From: Oscillibacter sp.
GTDB lineage: Bacteria; Bacillota; Clostridia; Oscillospirales; Oscillospiraceae
Direction: 5' to 3'
NCBI RefSeq assembly: GCF_028693505.1
Contig: NZ_JAQUVF010000014.1
Span: forward strand, 1 to 64,000
Length of the DNA stretch: 64,000 nt
A program made the translations under genes and the position numbers. Numbering within the stretch: position 1 is the first letter of the stretch; every line of letters begins with the position of its first letter. This document shows, piece by piece, positions 23,343 through 45,168 of the stretch. Under the pieces are notes generated by a model. The model worked only from the letters and a program-made list of their open reading frames with translations. It did no database searches and was not told the DNA's origin.

Positions 23343-23390
23343 AATAAGAGGAACGACCGACAGCCCAGCTGTCGGTCGTTCCTCTTATTC
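23343..23390. terminator. Bidirectional terminator, amidohydrolase / ECF operon
   Basis: A 21-base perfect stem (core GAGGAACGACCGACAG / CTGTCGGTCGTTCCTC) with a five-base loop lies between convergent operons and includes the stop codon of the ECF fusion gene. Confidence 0.9.
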
Positions 23391-26021
23391 AATTAAATCG
23401 TATTTAACTTTTATGCGGTCCAGTTTTTCCAGCATCGGCTCTCCCAGCATCAGCAGGAAAATGACAGTCGCCGCAGCACGTACTACATCCAGCGGCAGGC
23501 CGGATATATAATAGGTAAGCAAAATCTGTCCATTGAGGGTGTGTGTCCACATCAACGCGGAGACCGGATTCATAATTGCGCCGTAAAGCAGAGCTGCCAG
23601 CGCGCCGAAGATACATAAAGACCCCTTCGTGCGGCACAGGACGCCTTTTCGAAACAGCACGCCTGCCAAAAAACCGATCAGCCCCATGGTAAACATCTGC
23701 CAGGGCGTCCACGCCCCCTGCCCGAAGAGCATGTTGGACGTGAGCATCGTCATGGCCCCCACCAGAAAGCCGGTCTCTCCGCCAAAGGCCACGCCGGAAA
23801 GGATGACCAGCGCCACCACCGGCTTGAACTCCGGAACCATAAACAGCGCCGTGCGGCCCGCCACGCCCAGCGCGCAAAGCACCGCGATGACCACCAGCTC
23901 CCGCGGCTGGGGTTTCCTGCCTTCAAACGTCAGTGCAAAGGGCAGCATGGTTTCAAGCAAAACCAGAAGGGAAATGAAGTAGTATTTCCGATCTCCCAGA
24001 TACCAAACGCCCACAAACAGTGTGATTGGGATCAGCAGAAGAATCATCCCCGCCGCCGCCACCGTGCGCCGGGGCAGTTTTCGCTGCGGGCGCGGCTGGC
24101 GAACGGGGCAAACCGGCTGCCGCGCCCTTTGTCCGACAGACAGCGCGAATAGCAGCAGGGAGACCGCCAGCACAGCATAAATTTTTGCGTACGCGCCCAC
24201 CTGCGCCGTCATCCCGCCGGAGGTCAGCAGCGCCGACAAATCGGTGACGCCAATGGCTTTGATAAATGCAAGTAAGGCCGCCGCGCCGGACGCTGCGGCA
24301 ACCGCCCTGCGCCACCCCGGCAATTTTCCGCCCGCCGCCCTTGGAAGCGGCTGAGGCAGCGGCTGCGAGGAATCCTCCGGAAGCGGCGCAGACTCCACAA
24401 AACCGCCGCAGGCCTTGATGACATCCCCGGTAGTAACCGCTCCCGGCACAAGCTGGCCCGCGATTCGGCTGGCTGCCGTGGTATAAAAGCTGTTGCCGGA
24501 AAAGAATGCCCGGGGCGAACCGGCAGACACAATGGCGCCGTCAAAAAACAGTGCGCAGCGGTGGGCATATTCCGCGCAGAATTCCACATCATGGCTTACC
24601 ATGCACACGGTGACTCCCTCTCGCAGCAGTGTTCGGAGAATCTGCGCGAAAAGCTGTTTGAATTCTGCGTCCAGCCCCTTCGTGGGTTCGTCCGGCAGCA
24701 AAATTTGCGGAGAGAGCAGCAAAATCTTTGCCAGGGCGGCCCGCTGCTGTTCCCCTCCGGAGAGATCGTAGGGGTGCCGGTCCAGCAGTTCTTCCAACCG
24801 GCACAGACGGACCATGCGGGCAATACGCTCCTCCGCATCCGGCAGTCCGCTTCCCCTGAGCAGTTCCCCCAAATCCTCCCTGACCGTCTTTTTCAAAAAC
24901 AGGACCTTCGGATTTTGGGGCAGCATGCCCACGCTGCCGCAAATTTTCATGTCGCCGCGATATGCCTTTTCCATGCCGCCGATCACGGAGAGCAGCGTCG
25001 TTTTTCCACTTCCGTTTCCACCCAGCAGGGCCAGAAATTCTCCCCGCCCTACTGTCATGGTGACGCCCTTGAGCACATCCGGTTGTTCCTGTCCGTATCG
25101 AAACCAAGTGTCCTCCAGCTCAATTGCAATTTCTTTCTCCGCCGGAGGCGCTTTCTCCGCTTCCAGCGCCGTGAGCGAGTGTCCCTGTGCAAAGCGGCCC
25201 AGCCAGCGCTGCCCATCCCGCACAGTCACCGGGCACACTTGGGTATCCTCCTGCCGCTCCGCCGCCGCCCAGATCCGCATGGCGGCCGGCATTGCCAGAA
25301 ACATGGCATGTCCGCGCTGGCGCAGCGCCCTCCCCGCCTCCTCCGGCGTTCCGTCGGCAATGATCGCGCCCCGGTCCATGACCAACACCCGGTCAGACAT
25401 GGGGAACGCCTCCTCCAGACGATGCTCCGTCATAATCACCGTGGTACCCAGTTCTCTGTGGATTCGGCCCACCGTTGCCAGAAACTCTCCGGCGGCGATG
25501 GGGTCCAGCTGGCTGGTGGGTTCATCCAGAACCAGCACCTGGGGCTGCATCGCCATGATGGACGCCAGATTTAAAAGCTGCTTTTGTCCGCCGGAGAGTT
25601 CCGACACGTTTTTATGAAACCATGTCTGGATTCCGAAAAAGCTGGCCATCTCCGCCACGCGCTTTCGGATGAATGGCGTATCGTAGCCAAGGCTCTCCAA
25701 TCCGAAGGCCAGTTCATGCCACACCTTGTCGGTCACGATCTGATTGTCCGGGTCTTGCTGCACAAAGCCGATGCACCGGCTTTGGGTCCGCAGGTCTACC
25801 CCCTCCAGAGGCACGCCCTCAAAGAGAATCTGTCCTTTTCTGGGACCCTTGGGCGTCAGCACACTTTTGAGCTGGCGCAGCAGGGTGGACTTCCCGCAGC
25901 CGGACGGTCCGCACAGCGTCACGAACTGTCCGCGTTCCACACGCACATTCACTTCGCAAAGAGCCGGCGCGGCCTGCTCCGGATAATAGAAGGTCAGATT
26001 TTGGATTGCATACGTTTCCAC
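23385..26021 (-). CDS. ECF transporter ATPase-ATPase-S component fusion (predicted cobalamin uptake)
   Basis: One 878-residue polypeptide carries both ECF ATPases and the substrate-binding membrane component. ATPase 1 (about 1-270) has GPSGCGKST, ELSGGQKQ and VLVLDEPTSQLD; ATPase 2 (about 300-540) has GGNGSGKTT, DLSGGEQQR and LLPDEPTKGLD, the latter with Pro where Leu is usual. From about 570 the chain becomes membrane-spanning, with TFEGRKPQPRELVVIAVLCALGVAGRTALF and FLVGAMTMLTSNMLFGQGAWTPWQM typical of ECF S components. The start is the GTG at 26021 after AAAGGAGG, overlapping the ecfT stop by 28 bases. The cobalamin riboswitch at the operon head makes B12 or a corrinoid the likely cargo. 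Confidence 0.88.
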   Translation of the reverse strand: METYAIQNLTFYYPEQAAPALCEVNVRVERGQFVTLCGPSGCGKSTLLRQLKSVLTPKGPRKGQILFEGVPLEGVDLRTQSRCIGFVQQDPDNQIVTDKVWHELAFGLESLGYDTPFIRKRVAEMASFFGIQTWFHKNVSELSGGQKQLLNLASIMAMQPQVLVLDEPTSQLDPIAAGEFLATVGRIHRELGTTVIMTEHRLEEAFPMSDRVLVMDRGAIIADGTPEEAGRALRQRGHAMFLAMPAAMRIWAAAERQEDTQVCPVTVRDGQRWLGRFAQGHSLTALEAEKAPPAEKEIAIELEDTWFRYGQEQPDVLKGVTMTVGRGEFLALLGGNGSGKTTLLSVIGGMEKAYRGDMKICGSVGMLPQNPKVLFLKKTVREDLGELLRGSGLPDAEERIARMVRLCRLEELLDRHPYDLSGGEQQRAALAKILLLSPQILLPDEPTKGLDAEFKQLFAQILRTLLREGVTVCMVSHDVEFCAEYAHRCALFFDGAIVSAGSPRAFFSGNSFYTTAASRIAGQLVPGAVTTGDVIKACGGFVESAPLPEDSSQPLPQPLPRAAGGKLPGWRRAVAAASGAAALLAFIKAIGVTDLSALLTSGGMTAQVGAYAKIYAVLAVSLLLFALSVGQRARQPVCPVRQPRPQRKLPRRTVAAAGMILLLIPITLFVGVWYLGDRKYYFISLLVLLETMLPFALTFEGRKPQPRELVVIAVLCALGVAGRTALFMVPEFKPVVALVILSGVAFGGETGFLVGAMTMLTSNMLFGQGAWTPWQMFTMGLIGFLAGVLFRKGVLCRTKGSLCIFGALAALLYGAIMNPVSALMWTHTLNGQILLTYYISGLPLDVVRAAATVIFLLMLGEPMLEKLDRIKVKYDLIE

Positions 26022-26887
26022 GCTCTGTCCTCCTTTACAGTCAAGATTGCAGGCGTCAGGCACAGCGCCAGATACACCAGTGGAAAGCTGAGGGAAAACG
26101 GCGTCGCCGCCGTGCCTTTCACAGTCGGATAATAGCGGAACCACAACTGCCCCGCCAAAGCGCCCGCTGTGACGTACCAACCGCAAAACAACAGCCACAA
26201 AAGCGCCAGACGATCCCGCCCGTCAAACTGGTAAATGGAAAAAGCCGTTCGCCCCGGAAGCCCATAGCCCCGACTTTTCATGCTGTCGGCTGTCTCAATG
26301 GCATTTTCCAGCGCCCATGTAATCAATGTGGAAAGGATGACGATGCCGCTGCGCAGCCGCCCAACCGCGCCGCCGGAGACGGTGCGTCCCGCGCAGCGCT
26401 GTGCCCGCGCAACCCGCTTGAGCTGGGCGGAGAATCTGGGCACAAACCGCAGCGCCATGCTCAGCACCAGAGAAAGGGCGGGAAGGACCCGTCCGAACAG
26501 ATAGACGAATTTATCGGAAGTCATGATTTCCTGATAGCAGAAAAACCAGAGCACCACCGCCGCCAGCATGGTTGCCGCTCCGCAGCCATAGAGAATGCTC
26601 TCCAGCGTCAGCGGGTTCCCGGAGGGCAAATACGCCAGCAGCGTCCGGCCCTCATGATTGAAAAGCGGGTTCAGCAGGATTGTCACCAGCAGTATGGGCA
26701 ACACGCAGCGGGCGGCAAACCGCACCGCCTTTTCCCCCTTCAGGCAAATCGCGTAGGTCAGCGCCGACAGGAGCGAGACTGCCAGACACACCGGATTCAT
26801 AAAGCACATGCTAAAGAGGAGCACCAGCGCAAAATATAAGAAGTTCACAAATGGATGATAGGTTGAAAAGGCGTCCCTCTCCCGCAT
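25994..26887 (-). CDS. ECF transporter transmembrane component EcfT
   Basis: A 297-residue CbiQ/EcfT-family coupling protein. It has several membrane helices (FLYFALVLLFSMCFMNPVCLAVSLLSAL and so on) and the late cytoplasmic coupling region with ARAQRCAG and DSMKSRGYGLPG, corresponding to the two A-R-G-type motifs that contact the ATPases. The ORF track starts 39 codons too early; the ATG at 26887 begins MRERDAFSTYHPFVNF, a typical EcfT start, and has AAAGGAGC upstream. It lies between the DUF4430 gene and the ATPase-ATPase-S fusion, completing the uptake complex. Confidence 0.9.
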   Translation of the reverse strand: MRERDAFSTYHPFVNFLYFALVLLFSMCFMNPVCLAVSLLSALTYAICLKGEKAVRFAARCVLPILLVTILLNPLFNHEGRTLLAYLPSGNPLTLESILYGCGAATMLAAVVLWFFCYQEIMTSDKFVYLFGRVLPALSLVLSMALRFVPRFSAQLKRVARAQRCAGRTVSGGAVGRLRSGIVILSTLITWALENAIETADSMKSRGYGLPGRTAFSIYQFDGRDRLALLWLLFCGWYVTAGALAGQLWFRYYPTVKGTAATPFSLSFPLVYLALCLTPAILTVKEDRAWKRMQSKI

Positions 26888-26930
26888 GGCCTGCTCCTTT
26901 CTCTTTTGCGCCGGTTCCCATTCGCAGCGC

Positions 26931-27752
26931 TCAGTCCCTCTGGCTGCCGCCTGCAAGCCCGCCGCCCACATCCGCGCCCAGCTCACAGGTATACACCCAG
27001 TCAATTCGGTCGCCGTCTTTCAGCTGATAACGGGAACAGCCGTAATTGGGAAACCAGTCGTTCACCCGATACATCCAGCCGGACTGCTCGCCCACGTCAA
27101 ATTCATACAGATTCGCAATTCCCTCGATATAAGCGGAGTTGTAGAGGGGGGTGTTCATATATTCCATGTGGATCCCCTGCGCTTGGCAGGTGCGGGAAAG
27201 CACGTCAAACGCGTTCTCCCCTTCCTCAAAGGAGACGCTGAGGGGATTTAGGATCCAGCCGTCCGACGGAATCACCTCTGCCTTCTCCGCGTCGGCAAAG
27301 TCCAAATGGTTCAAAGCCTCCGCACAGGAAATGGAGATGGTGCAGCTGTATGCGCTTTGCGCCGCTTCCTGCGGCTTCACCGGCGCGGGAGGCGTTTCCG
27401 GGGTCGGCTCCACCTGCTCACGGGCACTTTCCGCAGGGGGGTTCTCCGTCTGATCGCCTTCCGGCGTCGGCGGGTCGGACGCGGCAGGCGCGGCCGCTTC
27501 TTTTTCAATCGGCTTCGCGGCCGCTTCCGCCGCGTCAGCTTCTTTCGCATCGGCTTTTTCCGCCTCAACTTTTTCCGCAGCGGCTTGCGCCGCGCCCGCC
27601 AACTCCTGGGGCGCGGAACCCGCCGCGCTGCCGCTGCCCGCCGTCCAGCCTCTGGCCCCCGGCGTGTCGCCGCCGATATAAAAGGCCGCAGCCAGCACCG
27701 CCGCAATCAGCGCCGTCACAAGAATTTTGCGTTTGTTATGCTTCCACCACAT
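26931..27752 (-). CDS. Membrane-anchored DUF4430 protein, transcobalamin C-terminal-domain-like
   Basis: This 273-residue protein has one N-terminal membrane anchor (ILVTALIAAVLAAAFYIGG), a low-complexity Ala/Glu/Pro linker (about 35-130) and a C-terminal DUF4430 domain (about 140-265). That domain ends with the hallmark EQSGWMYRVNDWFPNYGCSRY and KDGDRIDWVYTCELGADVG. DUF4430 is the fold of the beta domain that closes over cobalamin in animal transcobalamin and intrinsic factor. It lies 14 bases after the barrel-SLH gene and before ecfT, in a cobalamin-riboswitch operon. I infer a membrane-tethered B12-binding partner that passes ligand to the ECF transporter. The binding role is untested. Confidence 0.82.
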   Translation of the reverse strand: MWWKHNKRKILVTALIAAVLAAAFYIGGDTPGARGWTAGSGSAAGSAPQELAGAAQAAAEKVEAEKADAKEADAAEAAAKPIEKEAAAPAASDPPTPEGDQTENPPAESAREQVEPTPETPPAPVKPQEAAQSAYSCTISISCAEALNHLDFADAEKAEVIPSDGWILNPLSVSFEEGENAFDVLSRTCQAQGIHMEYMNTPLYNSAYIEGIANLYEFDVGEQSGWMYRVNDWFPNYGCSRYQLKDGDRIDWVYTCELGADVGGGLAGGSQRD

Positions 27753-27766: not shown

Positions 27767-29392
27767 TTACAGTAATGCGCTGCGCCCCAGCAGATTGTAC
27801 AGAATCTGCGCCACCTCACCCCGCAGGATGGCGCGGGTAGGCTCCACGCTCCCATCGGTTTGGTCCAGAATCCCCTCCCGATAGCAAAACGCCACGCCGG
27901 GGCGGGACCATGCAGGAATCTGCGCGTCATCCGCAAACGGGGCCAGCGCGGTTTGAATCTGCTGGTCCGTTACCTCCGTGTCCATTCCGCACAGCTTTGC
28001 CGCCCGCGCCGTCATAACGGCTGCCTGCTGGCGGGTAATTTCCCCGTTGGGCTCAAATCTGCCGCCGCCAACGCCGTTGACGATTCCGTAGGCGCTGGCG
28101 GTATCCACCTGCGCCGCCAGCCAGCTGCCGGAGGGAATGTCACTGAACTCGCCGCGGCTCACGGGGGAAAGCCCCAGCGCCCGCACCATCATCACCGCAA
28201 ATTCTCCGCGGGTCACAGGAGCGTCGGGATCAAAGCGCCCGTCGCTCCGTCCATTGATTACCCCCCGGGCCGCCATGGCCTCCACCGCCTCCTGATTGGC
28301 ATGTCCCTGCACGTCATCAAAGGTGATCCCCGGATGGGTCACTTCCAGTTTTTTTACCGCCGCGTTTTTGCCGGCAAGCCCCACGCCCTCTGGGGCAGGG
28401 TCTGCCGCCACATCGCGCATGTCATAAAGGCCGGGGCGGTTCGCCTCGCTGCGCAGCACGGCAACCAGCGCGTAGAGTCCCTGCTCCGACGCCATCTGGT
28501 CCCCCTGCGCGTCCCCACTGCTGTGGGAAAAGCTTCCGTCGCCGTTTTGATAGCGCAGCAGGCTGTCCAACGGTGAATTCCCGTTTTTCATAAAGCGCGC
28601 GTCCTCCACGGAAATCCCCAGCGTGCACAGCGCCACAAGCACCTGCGCGCAGCCCTCCACGGTGTCCTCTCCACGGCAGGAGAAGCCGCCGTCCGGATTC
28701 TGAATCCGCGACAGGCAGTCCACCGCTTTTTCCGTGGCGGCCTTCACCGTCTCCTGGGTTTGATAGTTGGACAGGGCTTGCAGGACCATGCCTGTCATAT
28801 CCGGGTCGGCGCCGCCCTCATTCGACAAGCTCCAGCCGCCGTCCTCCAGCTGGCGGCCCAGCAGCTCTTCCACGTACATCTGGCGGGTAGCCTGGGTGGA
28901 AGCGCCCGGGCACTCCGGCATGGCATAGTTGCCGCTGTCCAGCGCGATGAGCGCCCATGCCGGGCCGTTGACTCCCTGCCAGACCGTCTTTTCAAAATCG
29001 CCCAGCGGCTCCAGCAGATTATAGCCCGCCACATCTGCGGGGTCTGCTCCAATCGCCGTGAGCGCCAGCGCCACGCGGCTGTACTCCGTGTATTTTCGTC
29101 CGTGCAGGATGCCGTTGCGCTCCTTGACATAGCGCTCGACGGCCCCCTGATACTGCTGTATGTAGTCCTGAGAGACCTCAAAATCGCCGCGGGTCAGGCC
29201 GATGATCGCCCATTCGCCTCCCACGGTGCCTACCTGGGGCGCTTTCACTTGCTCCAGCATGTACGCCGCGCTCCGCGCCGCTGCCGCCGCCACATCGCGC
29301 TCTGTCGCGGCAGCCCGCACTGGAACATTCCATCCCACCGCCAGCACGCAGCTTAAAAGCATGGCGGACGCCTGTTTCCAAATTCGTTTCAT
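27767..29392 (-). CDS. Surface alpha/alpha-barrel (transcobalamin/intrinsic-factor-like) protein with SLH repeats
   Basis: This 541-residue exported protein has a signal peptide (MLLSCVLAVGWNVPVRAAA), an alpha/alpha-barrel of terpenoid-cyclase or prenyltransferase type (about 30-340) and C-terminal SLH repeats (about 355-541). Barrel repeats include LEDGGWSLSNEGGADPDMTGMVLQAL, NPDGGFSCRG and NGDGSFSHSSGD. No cyclase DxDD motif is evident. The alpha domain of transcobalamin and intrinsic factor has this fold, and its beta-domain equivalent is the next gene. SLH repeats (VTRGEFAVMMVRALG, ITRQQAAVMTARA) would fix it to the wall. A cobalamin riboswitch with terminator sits directly upstream, so a surface corrinoid-binding role is the best inference. 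Confidence 0.82.
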   Translation of the reverse strand: MKRIWKQASAMLLSCVLAVGWNVPVRAAATERDVAAAAARSAAYMLEQVKAPQVGTVGGEWAIIGLTRGDFEVSQDYIQQYQGAVERYVKERNGILHGRKYTEYSRVALALTAIGADPADVAGYNLLEPLGDFEKTVWQGVNGPAWALIALDSGNYAMPECPGASTQATRQMYVEELLGRQLEDGGWSLSNEGGADPDMTGMVLQALSNYQTQETVKAATEKAVDCLSRIQNPDGGFSCRGEDTVEGCAQVLVALCTLGISVEDARFMKNGNSPLDSLLRYQNGDGSFSHSSGDAQGDQMASEQGLYALVAVLRSEANRPGLYDMRDVAADPAPEGVGLAGKNAAVKKLEVTHPGITFDDVQGHANQEAVEAMAARGVINGRSDGRFDPDAPVTRGEFAVMMVRALGLSPVSRGEFSDIPSGSWLAAQVDTASAYGIVNGVGGGRFEPNGEITRQQAAVMTARAAKLCGMDTEVTDQQIQTALAPFADDAQIPAWSRPGVAFCYREGILDQTDGSVEPTRAILRGEVAQILYNLLGRSALL

Positions 29393-29467: not shown

Positions 29468-29522
29468 GCCGTATTTCCGCAGCAATGCCTCGCGTCCGTT
29501 CTTCGCAGCTGGACGCGAAATA

Positions 29523-29712
29523 CACAAGCAGGTCTTCTGGCTCAGGTCGTGGTAGCCTGATCTGCCTTATCACACCGAAGCGGTGCAATGGCCGGCTTTC
29601 GCCGACGATCAGCCGACCTTTACAGCGGCGGCGTCCGCGCCGGATTTACACCGGCTTCCCTTTTCATTTCCCGCAGTACCGTCTGTCCGGAGCCCCGCAG
29701 GAACCACTTGTG
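29523..29712 (-). ncRNA. Cobalamin riboswitch 1
   Basis: On the minus strand the core AAGGGAAGCCGGTGTAAATC, then GCGGACGCCGCCGCTGTAA, and the 3' box GAGCCAGAAGACCTGC match the classical adenosylcobalamin aptamer almost fully. The outer P1 helix CACAAG / CTTGTG fixes the boundaries. It controls the barrel-SLH, DUF4430, EcfT and ECF fusion genes by transcription termination. Confidence 0.96.
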
Positions 29713-29750
29713 CCCTGGTATTTTGTTTTGGTCCCCGTCTCCGCCAGCCT

Positions 29751-30301: not shown

Positions 30302-31873
30302 TCACTCAAACATCATGCACATCATATAGGCATTGTTGAACTGCGCCATGCCGGACAGTTCCAAATAGGTGCACTGCTCCTTGGTGCGCCGCAAATCCTC
30401 TCCGGCCTTATCGGACAGCAGCAGCATGGAAGCGCCGGCTCCGGCGCTGTTGCCGACCACCTGCAGCCGGTCCAAAAGCGCCGCGGGGAAAAGCCCGATC
30501 CTGACTGCGCTCTCCGGACGCAGATAGCTGCCAAAGCCGCCCGCCAGATAAAATGCGCCCAGCTGCTCCGGCAAAATCTTTTGATGCTCCAGCAGCGTCT
30601 CGATCCCTGCCGCAACAGCGGCCTTTGCCAGTTGCAGCTTTCGAATATCCTCCGCCGTTATCCACACATCCCCGCTCAGGCGAAAGCGCACATTGCCGCC
30701 CTCGCCCTCCAATCGGTCCGCATAAGCCCCCGGCGCCTCGTCCGCTGGCTGCAACCGGCCCGTCTCATCCACGATCTCCAGCTCCAGCAGCGCCGCCAGT
30801 GTGTCCACCAGTCCGGAACCGCAAACGCCGATTGCTTCCCCGCCGCCCAGCACGGAAACGCGCAGCGCGCCATCCTCGACCCATACCCGGTCGATGGCGC
30901 CCGGAGACGCCGCCATGCCGCAGGAGATGCTTCCGCCCTCAAACGCAGGCCCTGCCGCCGTGGCGCAGCAGGTCAGGCCCCGGTGATCGCCCACAGCCAT
31001 TTCGCCGTTGGTCCCCACATCGACAAACAGGATGGGCTGTTCCTTTTCCAGCGCTTTCACCGCCATCAATCCCGCCGTGATGTCGCCGCCGACATAACCG
31101 GAAACGCAGGGGGCGATGTACAGCGCGGTCCCCGGCGCGGTTCCCAGATCATATTCTTCGGCGGACACGCTTTCGCCAAACAGGGAGCGGGGCGTGAACG
31201 GCGCCGCCGCGATGCCCGACGGGTCCAGTCCCGTCAGCAGATGCTCCATGACGGTGTTGCCCGCCACCGCAACCGCCGTTACCTCTTCCGGGGTTCTGCG
31301 GGCCTTTTCGCAAGCCTCCCGCAGAAGCTGGCGCAGCTGGGCGCGGATGGCCGCCGTCTGCACGGAGAGACCGTCCACATGCTCCATCGCGTATTGGATG
31401 CGGGAGATCACATCTGCGCCATAGGATCTCTGCCCGTTGGCTCCGCTGGCGGTTGCCAGCCGCACGCCGGTGCGCAGATCATATAAGTACAGCGCCACAG
31501 TGGTCGTGCCGATGTCCACCGCCGCGCCCAGCCCGCGGCGCTTACCGTCCGCTTCAAAGCGGAATACGCTGTTTTCCACCACAGTGAGCCCGTCGTCCTC
31601 TGCCAGAGAGACGGTGCACGCCCCCTCGATCCTGGCAAGACAGGCAAGCCGTCGTTCACTCTTTCCCGCCAGCAGCGCCTGCTCCCGCGCATCCGGCGCC
31701 GCCACCGCTCCGCTGACGGTTACCAGACATTTTCCGCACAGGCCATTGCCGCCGCAGGGCGCGTCCGCGTGATGGGAAAGCCCGCTCAGCCGCAGGCCCT
31801 CCAGCACGGTGGATCCCGCGTCCACCTGAATCTCCAGCCTTGTATGGTTGTAAAGCACTGTCAAAACCGGCAT
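30302..31873 (-). CDS. Reductive activator of corrinoid proteins (ferredoxin-ASKHA, DUF4445, RamA/RACE-like)
   Basis: This 523-residue protein has an N-terminal [2Fe-2S] ferredoxin domain (CGGNGLCGKCLVTVSG plus an earlier Cys, about 1-90), a linker and a large ASKHA ATPase-like domain (about 120-523) beginning GLGAAVDIGTTTVALYLYDL. Such proteins use ATP to reduce inactive Co(II) corrinoid proteins to Co(I), as RACE proteins do for O-demethylases. A corrinoid protein and two methyltransferases encoded at 38.4-41.8 kb are its likely clients. The CxxC-rich ferredoxin of RamA itself is absent, placing it in the bacterial RACE form. It shares an upstream AT-rich motif with both dctP genes of the methyltransferase cluster. 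Confidence 0.88.
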   Translation of the reverse strand: MPVLTVLYNHTRLEIQVDAGSTVLEGLRLSGLSHHADAPCGGNGLCGKCLVTVSGAVAAPDAREQALLAGKSERRLACLARIEGACTVSLAEDDGLTVVENSVFRFEADGKRRGLGAAVDIGTTTVALYLYDLRTGVRLATASGANGQRSYGADVISRIQYAMEHVDGLSVQTAAIRAQLRQLLREACEKARRTPEEVTAVAVAGNTVMEHLLTGLDPSGIAAAPFTPRSLFGESVSAEEYDLGTAPGTALYIAPCVSGYVGGDITAGLMAVKALEKEQPILFVDVGTNGEMAVGDHRGLTCCATAAGPAFEGGSISCGMAASPGAIDRVWVEDGALRVSVLGGGEAIGVCGSGLVDTLAALLELEIVDETGRLQPADEAPGAYADRLEGEGGNVRFRLSGDVWITAEDIRKLQLAKAAVAAGIETLLEHQKILPEQLGAFYLAGGFGSYLRPESAVRIGLFPAALLDRLQVVGNSAGAGASMLLLSDKAGEDLRRTKEQCTYLELSGMAQFNNAYMMCMMFE

Positions 31874-31980: not shown

Positions 31981-32065
31981 GAATCGTCCTAGACATTTTT
32001 TGGCGCCCATGCTATGCTTTTGTTCAATCGGGCAGGCAATTTTTGTGCTCCCGATCCAACTTGAT

Positions 32066-32283
32066 AGGCCAAACGACGCCGGAGGGCCATCAGCCTCACT
32101 GGCACGAGAAACGGGGTGTAACTCCCCACACAGAAACGGTACTGTAAGCGAGAGACCGTTCCGACGTGCGGCGCAGGCCGCATGGACACAATGTCACCAC
32201 TGCGGGGAACTGCGGGAAGGCAGGTAACGGACGCAGGAGGGCCCCCCTCCCTATCGCAAGTCAGGATATTCGCGTTTTGGCTG
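32066..32283 (+). ncRNA. Cobalamin riboswitch 2
   Basis: Plus-strand core elements are GGGGTGTAACTCCCCACA, GGTACTGTAAGCGAG, then CACCACTG with GGGAAGGCAGGTAACGG, and the 3' box GCAAGTCAGGATA. The ends GGCCAAACG / CGTTTTGGC pair as P1. The 3' box deviates from AAGACCTGCC, so it is a divergent member of the class. It precedes a terminator and the 1740-residue surface protein gene. Confidence 0.88.
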
Positions 32284-32321
32284 CCATACCGGCTTTCCCG
32301 GTTTGGGTGTGCATAAAAACG

Positions 32322-32363
32322 AATGCACCGAATGCTCGACATGAGCGTTCGGTGCATTTTTTG
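32322..32363 (+). terminator. Terminator of cobalamin riboswitch 2
   Basis: AATGCACCGAATGCTC / GAGCGTTCGGTGCATT with a five-base loop is followed by TTTTTTG, 120 bases before the giant gene. It is the likely expression platform. Confidence 0.85.
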
Positions 32364-32485
32364 TACGCTCTCTTTGCCGCATATGCGGTACCCGCACCTT
32401 GCCTCTCTGAGAGGCTGTTCATATTCATTCGACAGGAGATTTGATCTCCGTCCCACACCGTTGTGTGAAAAAAGGAGGAAGCACT

Positions 32486-35400
32486 TTGAAAAAGAAACTC
32501 AGCTCTTTGCTCTTGGTACTGGCCCTGCTGCTGACGATGCTGCCGGTCACCGCGCAGGCGGCAAACACCGCCGCCACGGTCTATGTCTCGGTCAGCAACC
32601 AGGGCGTCATCCCCCAGGGCAAGCACGAGGAATGGATGTCCATGGTACCCGTGGAGCTCAGCGGTCAGGAAAGCTACACCGTGCTGGACGCGCTGACCGC
32701 CCTGCACGCCGAGCATTACAGCGGCGGCGACGCAGGCTTTGCCACGGCGGAAAACGAATACGGCACCCTCTCCATGACAACGCTGTGGGGAGAGACCGAA
32801 GGCGTGGGCGGATTTTATGTCAATCATTCCATGCCGCTGGCCACAGTGGATCAAGCCACCGTTTCCGACGGAGACGTGATCGACGCGATCGTTTACCGCA
32901 GTGATTGGAGCGACAGCTATGCCTATTTTGACAAAACCACCGCAGCTGTCGAAACTGGCGCGGCGCTGACGCTGACGCTCAGCTATGAGCATTTTGTGAA
33001 TTTTTCCCCGCAAACGGACCCGGTAGAAAACGCCTCCATCACCGTGAACGGCGTTGCCACCGATGACACCACCGACGCCCAGGGCAGCGCCGTGCTGACC
33101 TTCGACGACGCCGGTACTTATGTGGTTTCCGCAGAGGGCTCCGACAATTTCCCCTTGACTGCGCCCGTCTGCGTTGTCACCGTGGCAGACCCCATTACCG
33201 TGGAGTTTGAAGTCGCCAGCGGCGAACTGGGCGGGTTTTTGATGGAGCCAACGTCTTTGACGGTATCCCCCGGGTTGGCCGCCAAGTACGGCTATGAGAC
33301 CGACCACCCGGCAGCCCCCGGCAATGTCACGGCGCTGGACGCCATGGTAAGTGCGCATCTTGCGACCTTTGGGGACGCGTTCGAAGAGGACCCCACGGCG
33401 TATCTGGCGGTCTCCGCCAGCGGCTTCGTGTCCACATTCTTTGGGGAGGCGGCCTCCTATTGCTGCACGCTTGTCAACGGGGAAGCTCCCGGCAAAATGG
33501 GGGATTCCTATTTTGAGGGAGACACGGCAGACGCCGCCGTCCTTCACGACGGCGACGCGGTCTTATTCGGTTTCTTTACAGACGCCTACTGCACGGACGA
33601 TGCGCTCTACTTCACCCGGCGATCCGTAGCAGTGGAGGCGGGCGAACCGTTTGAAGTGACGCTCAAGCAGTGCTTCCCGCTCTGGCAGATGTACGGATAC
33701 CCCTCCAAGCCGGAGAAGCCGGCCGAGGGCTACACCCTCCTTATAGACGGCGTTGAAAGCGATTCTTACACGACCGACGCGGAGGGGAAGGTGACCTTGT
33801 CCTTTGCGCAGGCCGGTACCTATACGCTTTCCGCCACGGATGGGTACGGGGAATTCTTCCCGCCCTACTGCGTGGTGGAGGTGGGCGAGGCTGGCAGCAT
33901 TCCCAATAACAAAGCCAGCGCCATCACCGTTGCGGACGCCGCCTCCACCCCCGACTTTTCCGAAGAGGTCTACGCCTATACGCTTCCCGTGCAAAGCGGC
34001 ACGAAAAAATCCCTCAGCTTTCAGGTGACCGCCGCGAGTGCCGGCAGCATCTCCGCGGTCAACAATGGCGGCGCGCCGGTGGCGCTTACCTCCGGAAAAA
34101 GCAAGAGCATCAGCCTTTTTGCCGGTAAAAACGTCATCGACATCACCGTCGCGCCCCCCTCTTCATCCAACGCGCTGCCAAAAACCTACACCTACACCGT
34201 CAGTCGACAGGCCGCCGTGAAATCCATCGCTCTGACGGACGGCGACGACCGGTCTGTGGCGCTGGCTCCGTCGTTTACGGCAAACACCACAGCCTATACC
34301 GCAAAGCTGGCGGCGGGGTCCACCGTGAAGCTCCTCCCCACCGCCGAAGAGCCCACAGGCTCCAAATTTCAGGTAACGCAGGGGGACGGGGTCTATGAGG
34401 ACCTCTCCGAGAGCGGATATCCCGTGGGCGAGGGCGCAAACATCTTTACCCTGCGCGCCGTCAGCAAGGATCTCGATCAAATCGGCGAGCGGGAGTACAC
34501 GCTCAGCGTAGTTGGCATTGCGGCGGCAGACGCCGTCATAACCGTTCCGGAAGGCGCGTTTCTCAGCCTGACGGACCCCTCGGGGAACAGTCTCTCCCTC
34601 TCAGCGCCCACCAGCGCGGACGGAAGGGATACCTACCGTATCCCCAGGCTGATGTGCGGGGAACCCTACCGTTATACCGTTGGTCAATACGGTCACACCG
34701 CCAAGGGCGGCACGTTTGTCCCCACGGCGGAGCACCCCGCGCTGGATGTGGATTTGGAAGCCGCCGAGGCGCCCGTCTCCGACATCACGGCGGAGTGGAA
34801 AAATTTCCGCAACAGCGACAGCAACATGGCGGTGGTGTCCGCTCAAACGCCCGTCAGCGCCGCCGGGGCGGAACTGAAATGGGAGACCTCCGTTGGAGAG
34901 GGCTATTCTCCCGTCACGTATCTGATGGTGGACGGCAAGGTCGTGGCCGCCTCAGGCACAAAACTGTATTTGCTCAACAGCGATACCGGCGCCATCGAAA
35001 AATCCGCCACCATGGCAGATAGCCGCGGGTATGGCTATATGCCGCCGGTCTATGGCGGCGGCATGCTCTTCGTCTCCCTGTCCGACGGCAAAATTCAGGC
35101 CTTTGACGCGCGGACGCTGGAGTCCAAGTGGCTTTATACGGACGCCCTGGGCGGGCAGGCCCTGAGCGCCATGACCTATGCCGACGGGCATCTCTATACC
35201 GGATTCGGCAACGACGCCTCCTCCCAAACGCAGAACTGGGTCTGCATTCAAACAGCAGACGAGGTCCCCTCCTCCGGAACGGAACCCAAATATGCCGCGT
35301 GGACTTTTTCCCACAAGGGCGGCTTTTACTGGTCCGGCGCCTATCTCACGGAGGGCTATTTGACGGTGGGCGGAGACAATGCCGCACTCTTGACCCTAGA

Positions 35401-37708
35401 CCGGCAGACCGGTGCGCTGGTTGATCGCGAAGACGTGGATGGGGACATCCGCTGCTCCATCGCCGCCTGGGATGGCAAGATCTGCTTTGTTACCAAGGGC
35501 GGTGGCTTTTATACCGCTGTGATCGACGAAGCCGGTCAGATCCGGGAGCTGACCCGCTTCGCGTCCATCGGCGGGGAGAGCACCTCCACGCCCGTGGTGG
35601 TGAACGGGTATGCCTACGTAGGCGTGCGGAACGGCACCATCGCCCAGATCAATTTGAGCAGCGGCGACGTAGAGACGGTTGCCGCACCGGCATATTCCCA
35701 GTCCTCGTTCCTGGCCTCCACCGCCTATCAGGAAAAGACATATCTCTATTTTGTCTGCAACGCCAGACCCGGCGGTATTCAGGCGCTGTGCGTGGATGAC
35801 AGGACCGGTGCCATGCAGCTTAGCGAGTTGTTTGTGCCAAGCGCCGCCCGGCAGAATTACAGCATCGCCAATGTCATGTGCGACGCAAACGGCGTTTTGT
35901 ATTTTGCCAATGACTCCGGCTACCTCTTTGCCGTTGCCCCGGCGGAGTCCGCTCACTGTCCCGTGATCTTCACGATCACCCCCTCCGACGCCGTGCTGAC
36001 GGTGAAGGACAGCGCCGGCAATCCCGTCCCCTGCGGCAGTTCCGCTTACGTGTACGATCTGCCTGCGGGAACCTATACCTATACTGCCGCCAAGGGCGGG
36101 GACTCCGCCTCCGGGTCCTTTACCGTCACCGCGGAGGAGGAGGTCGCCCACACCCCCAAAAGCATCCCCGTAACCATTGACACCACCACCTCCCCTTCCA
36201 CCTTCCCCGTATTCATATCCGTAGCCGACCCCCAGGGCAGCACCTATCTCACCAAGACCGGTTACACCGTCTCCAGCGGCACCACCGCTTACGAACTGCT
36301 GTGTATGACGGACCTCGAGGTGGAGGCCTCCTTCTCCCAGTTCGGCGCCTACGTAAAGCGGATTGAGGGACTGGGGGAATACGACGAAGGCTCTCAAAGC
36401 GGCTGGATGTTCCGGGTAAACGGTGAATTTGCCTCCGAAAGCGCCTCCTCTGTGACGTTAAGGTCCGGCGACTATGTAGAATGGCTATACACCAGAGACC
36501 TCGGCAGCGACGTTGGACAAAGCTACAACCCCGCCACCGGGTCCGGCTCCGTCATCCGCACCGACGCGTCCGTCTCCAAGGGCGTCGCCAGCGTCTCTGT
36601 TACCGCCAAGGAAATGAGCGATGCCATCGCTTCCGTTAAGACCCGCGGCGGAGAGACGATCACCATTCAGCCCTCCAATATCGGCGAGGCAGGCACCGTC
36701 TCGGTCACCATGCCCAAATCCGCCGTCCAGTCCATCGTCTCGGGCACCAATGCTGCGCTGGTGATTGAAACCGCCCACGGAACCGTCTCCATCCCCAGTA
36801 AGGCACTGAAAGCCATCGCCGCGCAAGCCAGCGGCAGCAGCATTGAAATCATCATCGCCAAAAAAGACGCAGCGCTGGCGGAAACGCTGACCGGACGGGA
36901 ACTGACCGCCCCCTGCATCGCAGAAGTAAGCATTTGCTCCAATGGAGAAAAACTCACCTCCTTCGATGGACAGGAGCTCACCATCGAGCTGGCTGTGGAT
37001 GCAAAGCGTTTTTCTGTGGGAAGCAGCTACCGCGCATACATTATTTCCGACGACGGCAAGGTAGAGCGCACACACGGGCAGTGCGTAAAGTCCGGCAGTG
37101 TGCCGGTGGTCCGCATCTCCACCGGCCACCTGTCCACCTTCGTCGTCACAGCGGAAGCACCCCTGCCCTTTACGGACGTTGACGGCAGCTGGGCCTTGGA
37201 TGCCATCCAGTACGTCTATGACCATGATCTGATGCAGGGAAGCACCGCCACCACCTTTGGCCCCAACGGCACCACCACCCGCGGTCAAATCGTAACCATT
37301 CTCTGGCGCATGGCCGGCAGCCCCGCCGCAGGCAAGACCTCCTTCCGGGATGTGGCTGACACCGCCTATTGTGCCCAGGCCATTGCCTGGGCCTGTGAAA
37401 ACGGGCTTGCCAACGGCTATGCCGACGCAACCTTCCGGCCCAATGCGCCCATCACTCGAGAGCAAATGGCTGCGTTCCTGTTCCGTTATGCGCAGCTGAT
37501 GAAGTACGAGAGCTCCGCCCGGGCAGACCTCTCCGTCTTTACCGACGCCGCACAGGTAAGCGCCTACGCGCAGGAGGCCCTCGCATGGGCCAATGCCGCA
37601 GGGCTGGTCGGCGGCACCGGCAAAACGACTCTTACCCCGCAGGGCAATGCCACCCGCGCGCAGGTCGCTGTGATTTTACAGCGCTTTTGCGAGACGGTGC
37701 GCGCGTAA
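32486..37708 (+). CDS. Giant SLH surface protein with DUF4430 domains and a beta-propeller (predicted corrinoid capture)
   Basis: From the TTG at 32486, which has GGAGG eight bases upstream, the protein is 1740 residues; the ORF track adds 15 codons. In order: signal peptide to AQA at about 26; DUF4430-like domain (about 30-140); Ig-like segment; second, more diverged DUF4430-like domain (about 225-370); two cadherin-like beta-sandwiches (about 470-680); a PEGA-like segment; a PQQ-like beta-propeller (about 790-1150: KLYLLNSDTGAIEKS, GKIQAFDARTLESKW); a clear DUF4430 domain (about 1240-1350: GSQSGWMFRVNGEFASES); a linker; three SLH repeats (about 1560-1740). Control by a cobalamin riboswitch points to corrinoid binding at the cell surface. 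Bacteroidetes BtuG also uses a propeller, but homology is not claimed. Confidence 0.85.
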   Translation: MKKKLSSLLLVLALLLTMLPVTAQAANTAATVYVSVSNQGVIPQGKHEEWMSMVPVELSGQESYTVLDALTALHAEHYSGGDAGFATAENEYGTLSMTTLWGETEGVGGFYVNHSMPLATVDQATVSDGDVIDAIVYRSDWSDSYAYFDKTTAAVETGAALTLTLSYEHFVNFSPQTDPVENASITVNGVATDDTTDAQGSAVLTFDDAGTYVVSAEGSDNFPLTAPVCVVTVADPITVEFEVASGELGGFLMEPTSLTVSPGLAAKYGYETDHPAAPGNVTALDAMVSAHLATFGDAFEEDPTAYLAVSASGFVSTFFGEAASYCCTLVNGEAPGKMGDSYFEGDTADAAVLHDGDAVLFGFFTDAYCTDDALYFTRRSVAVEAGEPFEVTLKQCFPLWQMYGYPSKPEKPAEGYTLLIDGVESDSYTTDAEGKVTLSFAQAGTYTLSATDGYGEFFPPYCVVEVGEAGSIPNNKASAITVADAASTPDFSEEVYAYTLPVQSGTKKSLSFQVTAASAGSISAVNNGGAPVALTSGKSKSISLFAGKNVIDITVAPPSSSNALPKTYTYTVSRQAAVKSIALTDGDDRSVALAPSFTANTTAYTAKLAAGSTVKLLPTAEEPTGSKFQVTQGDGVYEDLSESGYPVGEGANIFTLRAVSKDLDQIGEREYTLSVVGIAAADAVITVPEGAFLSLTDPSGNSLSLSAPTSADGRDTYRIPRLMCGEPYRYTVGQYGHTAKGGTFVPTAEHPALDVDLEAAEAPVSDITAEWKNFRNSDSNMAVVSAQTPVSAAGAELKWETSVGEGYSPVTYLMVDGKVVAASGTKLYLLNSDTGAIEKSATMADSRGYGYMPPVYGGGMLFVSLSDGKIQAFDARTLESKWLYTDALGGQALSAMTYADGHLYTGFGNDASSQTQNWVCIQTADEVPSSGTEPKYAAWTFSHKGGFYWSGAYLTEGYLTVGGDNAALLTLDRQTGALVDREDVDGDIRCSIAAWDGKICFVTKGGGFYTAVIDEAGQIRELTRFASIGGESTSTPVVVNGYAYVGVRNGTIAQINLSSGDVETVAAPAYSQSSFLASTAYQEKTYLYFVCNARPGGIQALCVDDRTGAMQLSELFVPSAARQNYSIANVMCDANGVLYFANDSGYLFAVAPAESAHCPVIFTITPSDAVLTVKDSAGNPVPCGSSAYVYDLPAGTYTYTAAKGGDSASGSFTVTAEEEVAHTPKSIPVTIDTTTSPSTFPVFISVADPQGSTYLTKTGYTVSSGTTAYELLCMTDLEVEASFSQFGAYVKRIEGLGEYDEGSQSGWMFRVNGEFASESASSVTLRSGDYVEWLYTRDLGSDVGQSYNPATGSGSVIRTDASVSKGVASVSVTAKEMSDAIASVKTRGGETITIQPSNIGEAGTVSVTMPKSAVQSIVSGTNAALVIETAHGTVSIPSKALKAIAAQASGSSIEIIIAKKDAALAETLTGRELTAPCIAEVSICSNGEKLTSFDGQELTIELAVDAKRFSVGSSYRAYIISDDGKVERTHGQCVKSGSVPVVRISTGHLSTFVVTAEAPLPFTDVDGSWALDAIQYVYDHDLMQGSTATTFGPNGTTTRGQIVTILWRMAGSPAAGKTSFRDVADTAYCAQAIAWACENGLANGYADATFRPNAPITREQMAAFLFRYAQLMKYESSARADLSVFTDAAQVSAYAQEALAWANAAGLVGGTGKTTLTPQGNATRAQVAVILQRFCETVRA

Positions 37709-37786: not shown

Positions 37787-38083
37787 TTATCTGTTCTGTC
37801 GCCCCTGCTCGTTCAGCTCCCGAAATTTGTCAATCACCTCGTCGTACCGCTCCTTCCGGTGGGGAAACAGGCACCCGCTGCAATCTTTCGCTCCGTTTTT
37901 GAGATACGTGAAATTTCCGCCGCACCGCTCCCCAAAGGTGTACAGCGGGCAATAGCAAAACAGGCAGTTGAAGGTCTCAGGATGCTGCGTTGCGTGGCAG
38001 GGAAAGTATTCGCACGACCGATGCTGAAAAAAGGCATACCGCCGCTCATTCGGCGGCTCTTTCGGGGAAAAAGTTTTCTCCAT
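37787..38083 (-). CDS. Small Cys-rich metal-binding protein (corrin-biosynthesis-linked family)
   Basis: This 98-residue protein starts at the ATG at 38083 (AAAGGGA upstream), not at the longer ORF start. It carries HRSCEYFPCH, FNCLFCYCPLY, GERCGG and DCSGCLFPH, the pattern of the cysteine-rich small domain family. That domain is also found fused to a predicted precorrin methyltransferase in methanogens, so a link to cobalt or corrin metabolism is likely. Here it lies beside the B12-regulated giant gene. It may bind zinc, cobalt or an Fe-S cluster. Its true role is unknown. Confidence 0.75.
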   Translation of the reverse strand: MEKTFSPKEPPNERRYAFFQHRSCEYFPCHATQHPETFNCLFCYCPLYTFGERCGGNFTYLKNGAKDCSGCLFPHRKERYDEVIDKFRELNEQGRQNR

Positions 38084-38332
38084 CCTCGCATCCCTTTCAC
38101 TTTTTGGTATTTGATATGTTCCAAAACGCGCCCTGCGGGCCTGCGGCGGTGGGCATTCGGGCACATCCGCGCCTTCAAAAAGTCCGTCCGGCAGGTCAGG
38201 CCGGGACCCGGCAGGCATATTCTCTCATACATTTAAAATTTTTTCCACCGTCCCGTTTAAAACGGCAAAAGTGTCCCAAACAAGCACAACTTCCTACTAA
38301 AGAAAACAGCCCGGACATGCTATTCTTTACAG

Positions 38333-38345: not shown

Positions 38346-38383
38346 TGTTTTTCATAATTACCTAATATCAGGAGGAATTGCCT

Positions 38384-39424
38384 ATGAAACGAAACATGGA
38401 TCAATGGACCAGCGAATTGCTGTCCGCCAAGGTCAAAAAGGCCCTGCCAGTCTTGTCCTTCCCCTCCATTCAACTGCTGGGCGTTACCGTCCGTGACCTG
38501 ATTTCGGACAGTGATACGCAGGCACGGGGCATGAAGGCGGTTGCTGACCGGACACCCAAGGCCGGCGGTTCCGTCAGTTTGATGGATTTATCCGTTGAGG
38601 CGGAATGCTTTGGCGCACCCATTCACATCTCCGATGATGAAGTCCCCACGGTTACCGGCCCCGTCCTGTCTGTGGACGTGGATGAGGATGAACGTATGGA
38701 AGCCGCAAAGGCGCTGGAAGTGCCTTCTGTGGGCGCCGGCCGCACACAAATCTATCTTGACGCCATGGAGAAGGCTATGGAGCTTATTACGGATCGTCCG
38801 GTTTTTGCCGGGGTCATCGGTCCCTTTTCTCTGGCCGGGCGTTTGATGGATGTGACGGAAACCATGGTCTATTGTTATAGCGAGCCGGACATGGTTCATG
38901 TGGTTCTGGAAAAGGCCACTGCGTTTATCATAAAATATATTCTTGCCTATAAGGAGATCGGCGTCAATGGCGTTGTGATTGCCGAACCTCTGGCAGGTCT
39001 GCTGTCTCCCGCGCTGGCGCAGGAATTTTCCGGCGACTACTGCAAGCGCATTGTAGAGGCCGTTCGCAGTGAGGATTTCGCCGTTATTTATCACAACTGC
39101 GGCAACACCGCCACCATTACCCTGGATTCCATCACTTCCTGCGGCGCAAATGCATACCATTTCGGCAACGCAGTGGATATGGAGGAGCTTTTGGAAAAGC
39201 TCCCCGCCGACATTCCGGCCCTGGGCAATGTGGATCCCGCCCGTCAGTTCCGCAACGGAACGCCGTTTTCGGTCCGCAAGGCCACGCTGTCCCTGATGGA
39301 GCGCTGCTGCACCCATCCCAACTTTACGATCTCCTCCGGTTGCGACATCCCCCCGCTGTCCAACTGGGCCAATATTGACGCCTTCTTTCAGGCGGTGGAT
39401 GATTTTTACGCGGAACACAACTGA
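38384..39424 (+). CDS. MtaA/MtbA-like methylcobamide methyltransferase (UroD family)
   Basis: This 346-residue TIM-barrel protein belongs to the MtaA/CmuA branch of the uroporphyrinogen decarboxylase superfamily. The zinc ligands of that branch are present: His-x-Cys in IYHNCGN at about 236 and a late Cys in SSGCDIPP at about 319. Such enzymes move a methyl group from a methylated corrinoid protein to a thiol acceptor (coenzyme M in methanogens). The acceptor in this bacterium is unknown. GGAGG precedes the ATG at 38384; the track adds two codons. It converges on the corrinoid protein gene and is its probable MT2 partner. Confidence 0.85.
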   Translation: MKRNMDQWTSELLSAKVKKALPVLSFPSIQLLGVTVRDLISDSDTQARGMKAVADRTPKAGGSVSLMDLSVEAECFGAPIHISDDEVPTVTGPVLSVDVDEDERMEAAKALEVPSVGAGRTQIYLDAMEKAMELITDRPVFAGVIGPFSLAGRLMDVTETMVYCYSEPDMVHVVLEKATAFIIKYILAYKEIGVNGVVIAEPLAGLLSPALAQEFSGDYCKRIVEAVRSEDFAVIYHNCGNTATITLDSITSCGANAYHFGNAVDMEELLEKLPADIPALGNVDPARQFRNGTPFSVRKATLSLMERCCTHPNFTISSGCDIPPLSNWANIDAFFQAVDDFYAEHN

Positions 39425-39682: not shown

Positions 39683-40318
39683 TTATTTCGTGCAAAACGC
39701 AAGCGCCACGCCTGCCGCGCTGGCCGCATCCGCAGTGTAGCTATCCGCGCCGATCTGGTCGCAGTAGTCCTGCGTGATGGGGGCGCCGCCAATCATGACT
39801 TTTACCGTGTCACCCAGGTCGGAGGCTTTCACCGCTTCCACCACATTGCGCATTTCGCCCATGGTGGTCGTCAGCAGTGCCGAGCAGGCAATGATCTGGG
39901 CATGATGCTCCCGAGCGGCGTCCAGGAAGGTTTCCACAGGCACGTCGACCCCCAGATCCACCACTTTCAGGCCCTTGCCCTCCATCATCATGCGGACGAG
40001 GTTTTTGCCGATGTCATGCAGGTCGCCCTTGACTGTGCCGATCACAACGGTTCCCTTTTCCTCAACGCCGGCAGCAACCAGATAGGGGCGCAGAATCTCC
40101 GTCCCTTTGCTCATGGCGCGGGCGGCGATCAGCACCTCCGGCACAAAAACCTCATTGTTCTTAAATTTTTCGCCAATCGTATTCATACCGCTGAGGAGTC
40201 CCTGCTCCAAAATCTCACCGGCAGGAATGTTTTCATCCAGAGCCTGCTGCACATACTCTTTTACCTTCGGGACCCGTCCCTGCTGCAGCGCAGAGTTGAT
40301 ATCATCTAAAATGCTCAC
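39683..40318 (-). CDS. Corrinoid (B12-binding) protein of a methyltransferase system
   Basis: This protein of 211 residues carries the methyl group between methyltransferases. It has the helical cap domain (about 1-85) and a Rossmann B12-binding domain with TVKGDLHDIGKN, whose DLHDIG His is the lower cobalt ligand (base-off, His-on), then LGVDVPVETF, CSALLTTTM and VMIGGAPI. The likely start is the GTG at 40318, after GGAGG at eight bases, which gives the usual N-terminus SILDDINSALQQG; upstream in-frame starts at 40333 and 40345 lack a site. It follows the UroD-fold methyltransferase gene behind a hairpin. The RACE-like protein at 30.3 kb would reactivate it. Confidence 0.93.
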   Translation of the reverse strand: MSILDDINSALQQGRVPKVKEYVQQALDENIPAGEILEQGLLSGMNTIGEKFKNNEVFVPEVLIAARAMSKGTEILRPYLVAAGVEEKGTVVIGTVKGDLHDIGKNLVRMMMEGKGLKVVDLGVDVPVETFLDAAREHHAQIIACSALLTTTMGEMRNVVEAVKASDLGDTVKVMIGGAPITQDYCDQIGADSYTADAASAAGVALAFCTK

Positions 40319-40444
40319 GTTGATGTCCTCCATTTTTGATTTCACAGGCGTTGCGCAACATATTCCTTTATGTATTTATAGTAGCATAAAAACAGGCGGA
40401 ATATCTTGAAATTTTTTATGTTTTTTTTGAACGATTTTCTCTTC

Positions 40445-43202: not shown

Positions 43203-43206
43203 TGGA

Positions 43207-43719
43207 TTACGCCTCCCCCTTCACGGAAACACCCTCTTCTTTTTTCGGGAGGATGTGAAATTTTACGATATTTTTGATTTGTGCAATGGCGCAGAAGCCA
43301 AAGCTGACAGGCATGCACAAATAGACATAGCCCAGGGTCCACTGCATGGCGGACGTCATGGATGTCATATTTTTCATGGACATGCTGTACGTAGGGAAGA
43401 TCAGATAGACCAGGATGGCCAGGGTGATCACATCGCCGATGAGATGGTTGGCGTGCAGAAGCTTCTTCTTTTTGGAGAAGAAAATCTCACTCAGATCCAC
43501 CACCAGATCGCCCTTGGTGTTAATCAGCCAGGGCGCGCCGGTAAAGGCCATGAATACCATCAGAAAACGGATCAGCTCGTCCGCCCAGATGGAGGGTGCG
43601 CCAAAAAGTCTGGTAATGACGCTATACGCGCAAACAAAAAACATGATAAACAGAAACACACCGGAAAGATAGAAAAAGAACTTATAGAATTTTTCTATGA
43701 AATCGCAAAATTTTCGCAT
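43207..43719 (-). CDS. TRAP transporter small permease (DctQ family)
   Basis: A 170-residue DctQ with four predicted helices and the usual RLFGAPSIWADELIRFLMVFMAFTGAPWL segment around residues 35-65. AGGAG precedes the ATG. A hairpin lies in the 150-base gap after the upstream dctP, typical of TRAP operons in which more binding protein than permease is made. Confidence 0.92.
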   Translation of the reverse strand: MRKFCDFIEKFYKFFFYLSGVFLFIMFFVCAYSVITRLFGAPSIWADELIRFLMVFMAFTGAPWLINTKGDLVVDLSEIFFSKKKKLLHANHLIGDVITLAILVYLIFPTYSMSMKNMTSMTSAMQWTLGYVYLCMPVSFGFCAIAQIKNIVKFHILPKKEEGVSVKGEA

Positions 43720-43867
43720 ATTAAATTTCTCCTAATCTTTATGAACCACAGCAACATGGAGTAAAGAGCCTCTTGTAACAAAGAGGGGCGGCGCAGTCCT
43801 GTGTATCACCTCACAACCGCTCTGTTAAAATGCTGCCGGAAAGCGCGGCAAACGGATACAAGGCCGA

Positions 43868-44935: not shown

Positions 44936-44962
44936 CATTTTTTTCTCCATCCTTTCGGTTTA

Positions 44963-44975
44963 TACAGAACCTACA
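44963..44975 (-). promoter_or_regulatory. Dyad element ahead of dctP copy 1
   Basis: TACAG-AAC-CTACA (plus-strand reading) matches 11 of 13 bases of the dyad at 38333-38345. It lies about 15-25 bases after the predicted start of transcription. Confidence 0.45.
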
Positions 44976-44997
44976 TTTGTCACATTTTCTAAAATTA

Positions 44998-45026
44998 AGA
45001 ATAATCTACCGCCGACATTTTTTCAA
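44998..45026 (-). promoter_or_regulatory. Promoter of dctP copy 1
   Basis: On the minus strand TTGAAA and TATTCT are 17 bases apart. Confidence 0.6.
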
Positions 45027-45056
45027 TCTTTACAACCCATTTGGGTCAAATCCTTC

Positions 45057-45085: not shown

Positions 45086-45168
45086 TCAAACTGCTATCTT
45101 AAACCTTTCGGCCGTGCAGGCGCCCTGCCGCTTCTGTGCGCCGCACTGAGCAGCTCCAGTCCTTGTGG

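Follow-up and report, generated by a model that had tools for sequence, protein, structure and literature searches.

The giant surface protein encoded at 32486-37708 on the plus strand of the window (the whole stretch of 64,000 nucleotides of Oscillibacter sp. DNA analysed here) is probably the outermost stage of corrinoid uptake in a B12-auxotrophic clostridium, a wall-anchored protein that would capture corrinoids ahead of an ECF-CbrT-type importer. The assignment is based on the genome context of its relatives across Clostridia, together with the leader RNA of the gene, the domains of the protein and the neighbouring operon. The draft genome to which the window belongs (as contig C14) has 2.06 Mb, is 97.65% complete and shows clostridial gene content.

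Leader RNA of the giant gene

The region upstream of the giant gene contains the following elements.

31990..32018, plus strand: promoter-like site with an extended -10 (TAGACA-17-TATGCT), 5' of the aptamer; a consensus match only, with 3 such sites in the region against 0.9 expected
32069..32280, plus strand: divergent cobalamin riboswitch aptamer (sub-threshold cmscan match and core pattern)
32114-32268, plus strand: conserved core of the aptamer (pattern of five core elements)
32069-32075 / 32273-32280, plus strand: closing helix of the aptamer, CCAAACG / CGTTTTGG, read from the sequence
32313..32365, plus strand: intrinsic terminator hairpin and T-run, the expression platform (fold of -28.8 kcal/mol, z -8.4)

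The leader matches RF00174 at 32059-32289 (plus strand) with 22.6 bits (cmscan, E 0.0011 for a search of 601 bases, 9.1e-4 genome-wide), short of the gathering score of 31.5, so that the default Rfam settings do not call it. The low score results from the closing helix, in which the consensus ACCUGCC side has been replaced and the pairing re-formed with different bases. The core nevertheless retains each of its five elements, in the order P5 hairpin around GGGGTGTAACTCCCC, ACTGTAA, CCACTG, CGGGAAGG and AGTCAGGA. Across the window plus 100 related loci (~1.68 Mb), a core pattern built from the P5 loop, CUGUA, CCAYUG, GGGAAGG and AGYCAGRA matched at 51 sites, and it had no match in the same ~1.68 Mb reversed. 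This pattern was loosened once, since a stricter first version had missed known sites; the window site is matched by both versions. As the core is complete and the folds of both the terminator and the entire leader (z -4.4) are far more stable than those of shuffled sequence, we take 32069-32280 to be a real, divergent cobalamin riboswitch, for which ligand binding is predicted. It shares with RF00174 the ordered core elements and the terminator platform, and differs in the altered closing helix and in a score below the family cut-off. An earlier, sequence-only reading of this DNA had placed a plus-strand cobalamin aptamer near 32066 and a strong terminator before the giant gene. Both are borne out, the aptamer by its intact core and clean reversed control despite the low score, and the terminator by RNA folding.

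Domains of the giant protein

The protein and its domains are located as follows.

32486..37708, plus strand: secreted SLH surface protein of 1740 residues, with a TTG start and the Shine-Dalgarno sequence AAGGAGGA (sequence, Pfam)
32561..32965, plus strand: diverged DUF4430-like domain N1, about residues 26-160 (profile comparison)
33191..33655, plus strand: diverged DUF4430-like domain N2, about residues 236-390 (profile comparison)
33920..34207, plus strand: cadherin-like sandwich, residues 479-574, the best of two stretches reported in the protein (Pfam)
34775..35950, plus strand: BamB/PQQ-type beta-propeller, about residues 764-1155 (Pfam PQQ_2, PDB sequence search, model and fold search)
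36278..36493, plus strand: clear DUF4430 domain, residues 1265-1336 (Pfam, E 2.4e-15)
37157..37702, plus strand: three SLH repeats, about residues 1558-1738 (Pfam)

The SLH match is strong (E 3.1e-36, in three stretches) and is accompanied by a hydrophobic, signal-like segment at the N-terminus. The C-terminal DUF4430 domain (PF14478) scores 57.2 bits, compared to a Pfam threshold of 23.8 bits, which neither N1 nor N2 reaches. Spacers of the CarboxypepD_reg-like and cadherin-like types are abundant. N1 and N2 are copies of a single domain type that recurs in other loci, for example between the toroid and DUF4430 in three related loci (L067, L069 and L070). The profile of the N1/N2 family matches the DUF4430 profile with 92.5% probability (E 4.9e-7), compared to 0.2% for a toroid and 0.1% for a propeller control profile.

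DUF4430 is the family of the transcobalamin and intrinsic factor beta domain; the C-terminal part of the vertebrate B12 carriers has been described as a DUF4430 domain (PMC4350170). The best PDB match of a pooled DUF4430-like profile is the beta domain of transcobalamin-2 (E 0.0044), followed by haptocorrin and full-length transcobalamin, the last of these having an E-value close to those of a few unrelated proteins. Run singly, the DUF4430 profile retrieves intrinsic factor and nothing else (E 0.46), and that of N1/N2 has transcobalamin-2 as its first, weak match (E 0.83). These links to the vertebrate carriers are individually weak (E 0.0044 to 0.83) but mutually consistent. A fold search with a model of the N-terminal region returned mostly multidomain chains with Ig-like folds (query TM 0.12-0.19) and is uninformative for DUF4430. 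Literature searches, which covered few subscription papers, returned nothing on the function of bacterial DUF4430 proteins in connection with cobalamin.

The propeller was modeled from 61 sequences with a mean pLDDT of 87.9, mostly above 90 within the propeller itself. Among solved structures, its fold is closest to BamB, YxaL and tetrathionate hydrolase, and by sequence the closest PDB entries are BamB, PQQ proteins and designed propellers. BtuG2 of Bacteroides (PDB 3DSM) is also a propeller, with seven blades (PMC6143338). Since 3DSM is absent from the top 50 matches and the clostridial propeller is BamB/YxaL/PQQ-like by both sequence and fold, we reject a kinship with BtuG. As a result, the suggestion that the propeller binds B12 is drawn from genetic linkage only.

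Importer operon, corrinoid island and relatives across Clostridia

The giant gene lies next to a second cobalamin-switched operon on the minus strand and to genes of corrinoid-dependent methyl transfer.

29510..29726, minus strand: first cobalamin riboswitch, heading the importer operon (86.9-91.7 bits; the one cobalamin riboswitch called at default Rfam settings, as 29510-29725 with 86.9 bits)
29467-29440, minus strand: terminator-like hairpin after the first riboswitch
27767..29392, minus strand: SLH protein of 541 residues with an alpha/alpha-toroid domain (Pfam, homologous loci)
26931..27752, minus strand: protein of 273 residues with an N-terminal membrane anchor, a linker and a C-terminal DUF4430 domain (Pfam, segment prediction)
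25994..27004, minus strand: ECF T component, CbiQ-like (domain search)
23385..26198, minus strand: fused ECF ATPase-ATPase-S component (domain search; the S part matches 6fnp_A)
30302..31873, minus strand: RACo-type corrinoid activation protein (domain search)
38378..39424, plus strand: methyltransferase of the URO-D family, MtaA/CmuA-like (domain search)
39683..40345, minus strand: B12-binding corrinoid protein, MtgC/MtbC-like, the only clear one of the genome (genome search)

The operon thus runs from a strong riboswitch through the SLH-anchored toroid protein, the membrane-anchored DUF4430 protein and ECF-T to the fused ATPase-ATPase-S chain. In the PDB, only 6fnp_A (E 8.9e-9) matches the S part of this chain; we take that entry, which is 182 residues long, to be CbrT of ECF-CbrT. 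The operon therefore contains an S component homologous to CbrT as well as ECF A and T components. ECF-CbrT of Lactobacillus delbrueckii has been shown to import B12 (PMC5997447). The two systems have a homologous S component, ECF ATPases and a T component in common; unlike ECF-CbrT, the operon of the window encodes a fused ATPase-ATPase-S chain, stands under a cobalamin riboswitch and includes dedicated surface proteins. The 273-residue DUF4430 protein alone has no meaningful match in the PDB.

Only two DUF4430 genes are present in the genome, and both are in this island. No CbiB was detected in the assembly (97.65% complete), which contains one TP_methylase. Together with the single clear corrinoid protein, these two biosynthesis families, probed in an incomplete assembly, make it very likely that the bacterium is a corrinoid auxotroph, and it appears to be one for B12. 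The corrinoid protein, its activator RACo and the uptake genes lie together in one island.

Other features of the region include a cysteine-rich small-domain protein (PF04071, E 7e-28) at 37787-38218 on the minus strand, between the giant gene and the methyltransferase, and a T-box leader at 10643-10898 on the minus strand (Rfam, 115.5 bits). Several genes of TRAP transporters (DctP, DctQ, DctM) flank the corrinoid island at 19135-22048 and 41922-46380. The URO-D methyltransferase, the MtgC/MtbC-like protein and RACo are apparently the only corrinoid-dependent methyl transfer system of the genome.

Relatives of the giant protein were sought with residues 760-1346; a query including the SLH repeats was swamped by SLH matches. 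Among 394 sampled genomes of the order, 20 contain such a relative, the window genome included, and a sample of the genus added one more; several of these 21 genomes were detected via DUF4430 and not the propeller. An RF00174 match on the same strand stands at the head of the gene or operon in 16 of the 21 genomes (15 of 20 without the window genome), and in most of these it is the only such match of the genome. Random placement would give ~0.01 genomes, compared to the 15 of 20 observed, an estimate that treats genomes as independent; since they share ancestry, the adjacencies are not independent events. In five genomes (G274, G378, G402, G264 and G311) the nearest switch is farther away or on another contig.

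The gene order that recurs is riboswitch, surface protein (propeller and/or toroid, DUF4430, SLH), small DUF4430 protein, ECF-T, and ECF ATPases and S component. In two of the genomes (loci L074 and L075), the toroid gene is the first and the DUF4430 gene the second. Using five close propellers as the query, 80 further loci were retrieved from named genomes and MAGs, among them Eubacterium barkeri, E. aggregans and Proteiniclasticum ruminis; this set overlaps with the sampled genomes, as some species occur in both. DUF4430 is encoded in 67 of the 80, ECF-T in 42 and a toroid in 41; among the 53 loci longer than 15 kb, DUF4430 is found in 51 and ECF-T in 37. A switch on the same strand is present in the retrieved stretch at 34 of the 80, a low number partly because the start of the operon falls outside the stretch and the Rfam search covered only some loci. 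The propeller and DUF4430-like domains are joined on one chain in 31 homologues, and in some others the propeller is found on a chain with no detected DUF4430 domain.

Several loci have unusual arrangements. L060 encodes a chain of 2963 residues (3909-12800, minus strand) that contains DUF4430, propeller, toroid, a second DUF4430 and SLH, an architecture also seen in L078 and L080, and Acetitomaculum ruminis (L104) has three propeller genes in tandem within 14 kb. The RF00174 matches at L074:11798-11926 and L075:5947-6075 (129 nt each) are without the middle CCAYUG/GGGAAGG arm and yet head toroid-DUF4430-ECF operons. There are 26 RF00174 matches in the genome of a Thermacetogenium MAG (L133) and 15 in that of Syntrophaceticus schinkii (L097).

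The vertebrate carriers transcobalamin, intrinsic factor and haptocorrin have a beta domain of the DUF4430 family in common with the clostridial proteins. Their toroid is N-terminal to the DUF4430-like domain, an order also found in the operon proteins of L067, L069 and L070. Unlike these carriers, the giant protein is bacterial and wall-anchored, and it combines several DUF4430 copies with a propeller. Sequence searches that went up to E 10 gave no match between the operon toroid and the vertebrate alpha domain.

Proposed function and alternatives

In the course of events that we infer, which includes ligand binding, the domain responsible, the relay of cargo and the sign of regulation, the leader at 32069-32280 would be ligand-free at low cellular cobalamin, the terminator would be avoided and the giant protein made; at high cobalamin, transcription would stop at the 32313-32365 terminator. 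The protein would be secreted and anchored to the wall through its SLH repeats, displaying three DUF4430-family domains and the propeller. One or more of the DUF4430-family domains may bind corrinoids like the transcobalamin beta domain, alone or with the propeller. The cargo would then be handed over, via the toroid protein on its SLH anchor and the DUF4430 protein anchored in the membrane, to the CbrT-like ECF transporter of the second B12-switched operon, and the imported corrinoid would feed the corrinoid protein, URO-D methyltransferase and RACo of the same island.

The giant protein could instead be regulated by B12 and not bind it: its propeller and sandwiches might serve as a scaffold bringing the separate toroid and DUF4430 proteins close to the transporter, or the protein might dock to other bacteria, the host or a B12 carrier. 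The resemblance of the propeller to YxaL and to BamB, a protein-protein scaffold, would suit such a role, as would the plentiful cadherin-like and CarboxypepD_reg-like spacers and the homologues whose propeller chain has no detected DUF4430. We nevertheless consider it unlikely, given the one clear and two diverged DUF4430-family domains of the protein, the vertebrate B12 carriers found by the pooled profile, and the 31 homologues that unite propeller and DUF4430-like domains.

Two further explanations concern the switch. Terminator-type cobalamin switches normally shut genes off when the cofactor is plentiful. This is the wrong sign for a protein that captures another compound needing B12 for its use (for example, a methylated substrate of the methyltransferase), with the riboswitch coupling expression to cofactor supply. 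The methyltransferase parts and TRAP transporters in the same region are compatible with that idea, but the recurring neighbours in other genomes are ECF and DUF4430 genes, and we give it almost no weight. The sub-threshold score and the replaced ACCUGCC segment could also indicate that the leader is a decayed, non-functional relic and that the gene has escaped B12 control; against this, the five core elements are in order, the closing helix has been re-formed with other bases, the terminator is strong and clear switches occupy the equivalent position in other genomes, all of which make a relic very improbable.

Capture of corrinoids at the cell wall thus stays the preferred reading. The sequence-only reading had already assigned the giant protein a clear DUF4430-like domain and two more diverged ones, along with cadherin-like sandwiches and a PQQ-like propeller, in agreement with Pfam and profile comparison. 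Its proposal of an extracellular corrinoid scavenger is the best explanation and is strongly backed by the genome context in Clostridia. The supporting argument, that both known B12-binding architectures meet in one protein, is weaker: the DUF4430 half stands, as these domains belong to the transcobalamin/intrinsic factor family, whereas the propeller is not BtuG-like.

BtuG and BtuH are surface B12 lipoproteins of Bacteroides (PMC6143338, PMC8941943). As is proposed for the clostridial proteins, they capture B12 at the cell surface, and they show the same genetic linkage to B12 transport. BtuG is a lipoprotein and the partner of BtuB in the outer membrane, whereas the clostridial BamB/PQQ-type propeller is part of an SLH-anchored, multidomain Gram-positive protein that is accompanied by an ECF importer. 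By analogy, the best explanation is that the clostridial system would work like surface capture in Bacteroides, assembled from other parts.

The literature searched, which covered few subscription papers, gives no account of competition for B12 among Gram-positive gut-type bacteria ahead of the membrane importer. Surface capture of B12 is known from Bacteroides, and we propose here a Gram-positive counterpart. More speculatively, Clostridia might share a so far undescribed modular, wall-anchored machinery that feeds a CbrT-type ECF transporter and is made up of DUF4430-family domains, an alpha/alpha toroid and a new corrinoid-binding propeller of the BamB/PQQ type, and vertebrate intrinsic factor and transcobalamin, which use the same toroid-plus-DUF4430 plan, may trace to such bacterial modules; we regard this wider proposal as possible but doubtful. 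DUF4430 is labelled a domain of unknown function, yet forms the beta domain of the human B12 carriers. The locus and its relatives thus offer a concrete prediction for the role of bacterial DUF4430, a new propeller family and a possible origin of the vertebrate carrier design.
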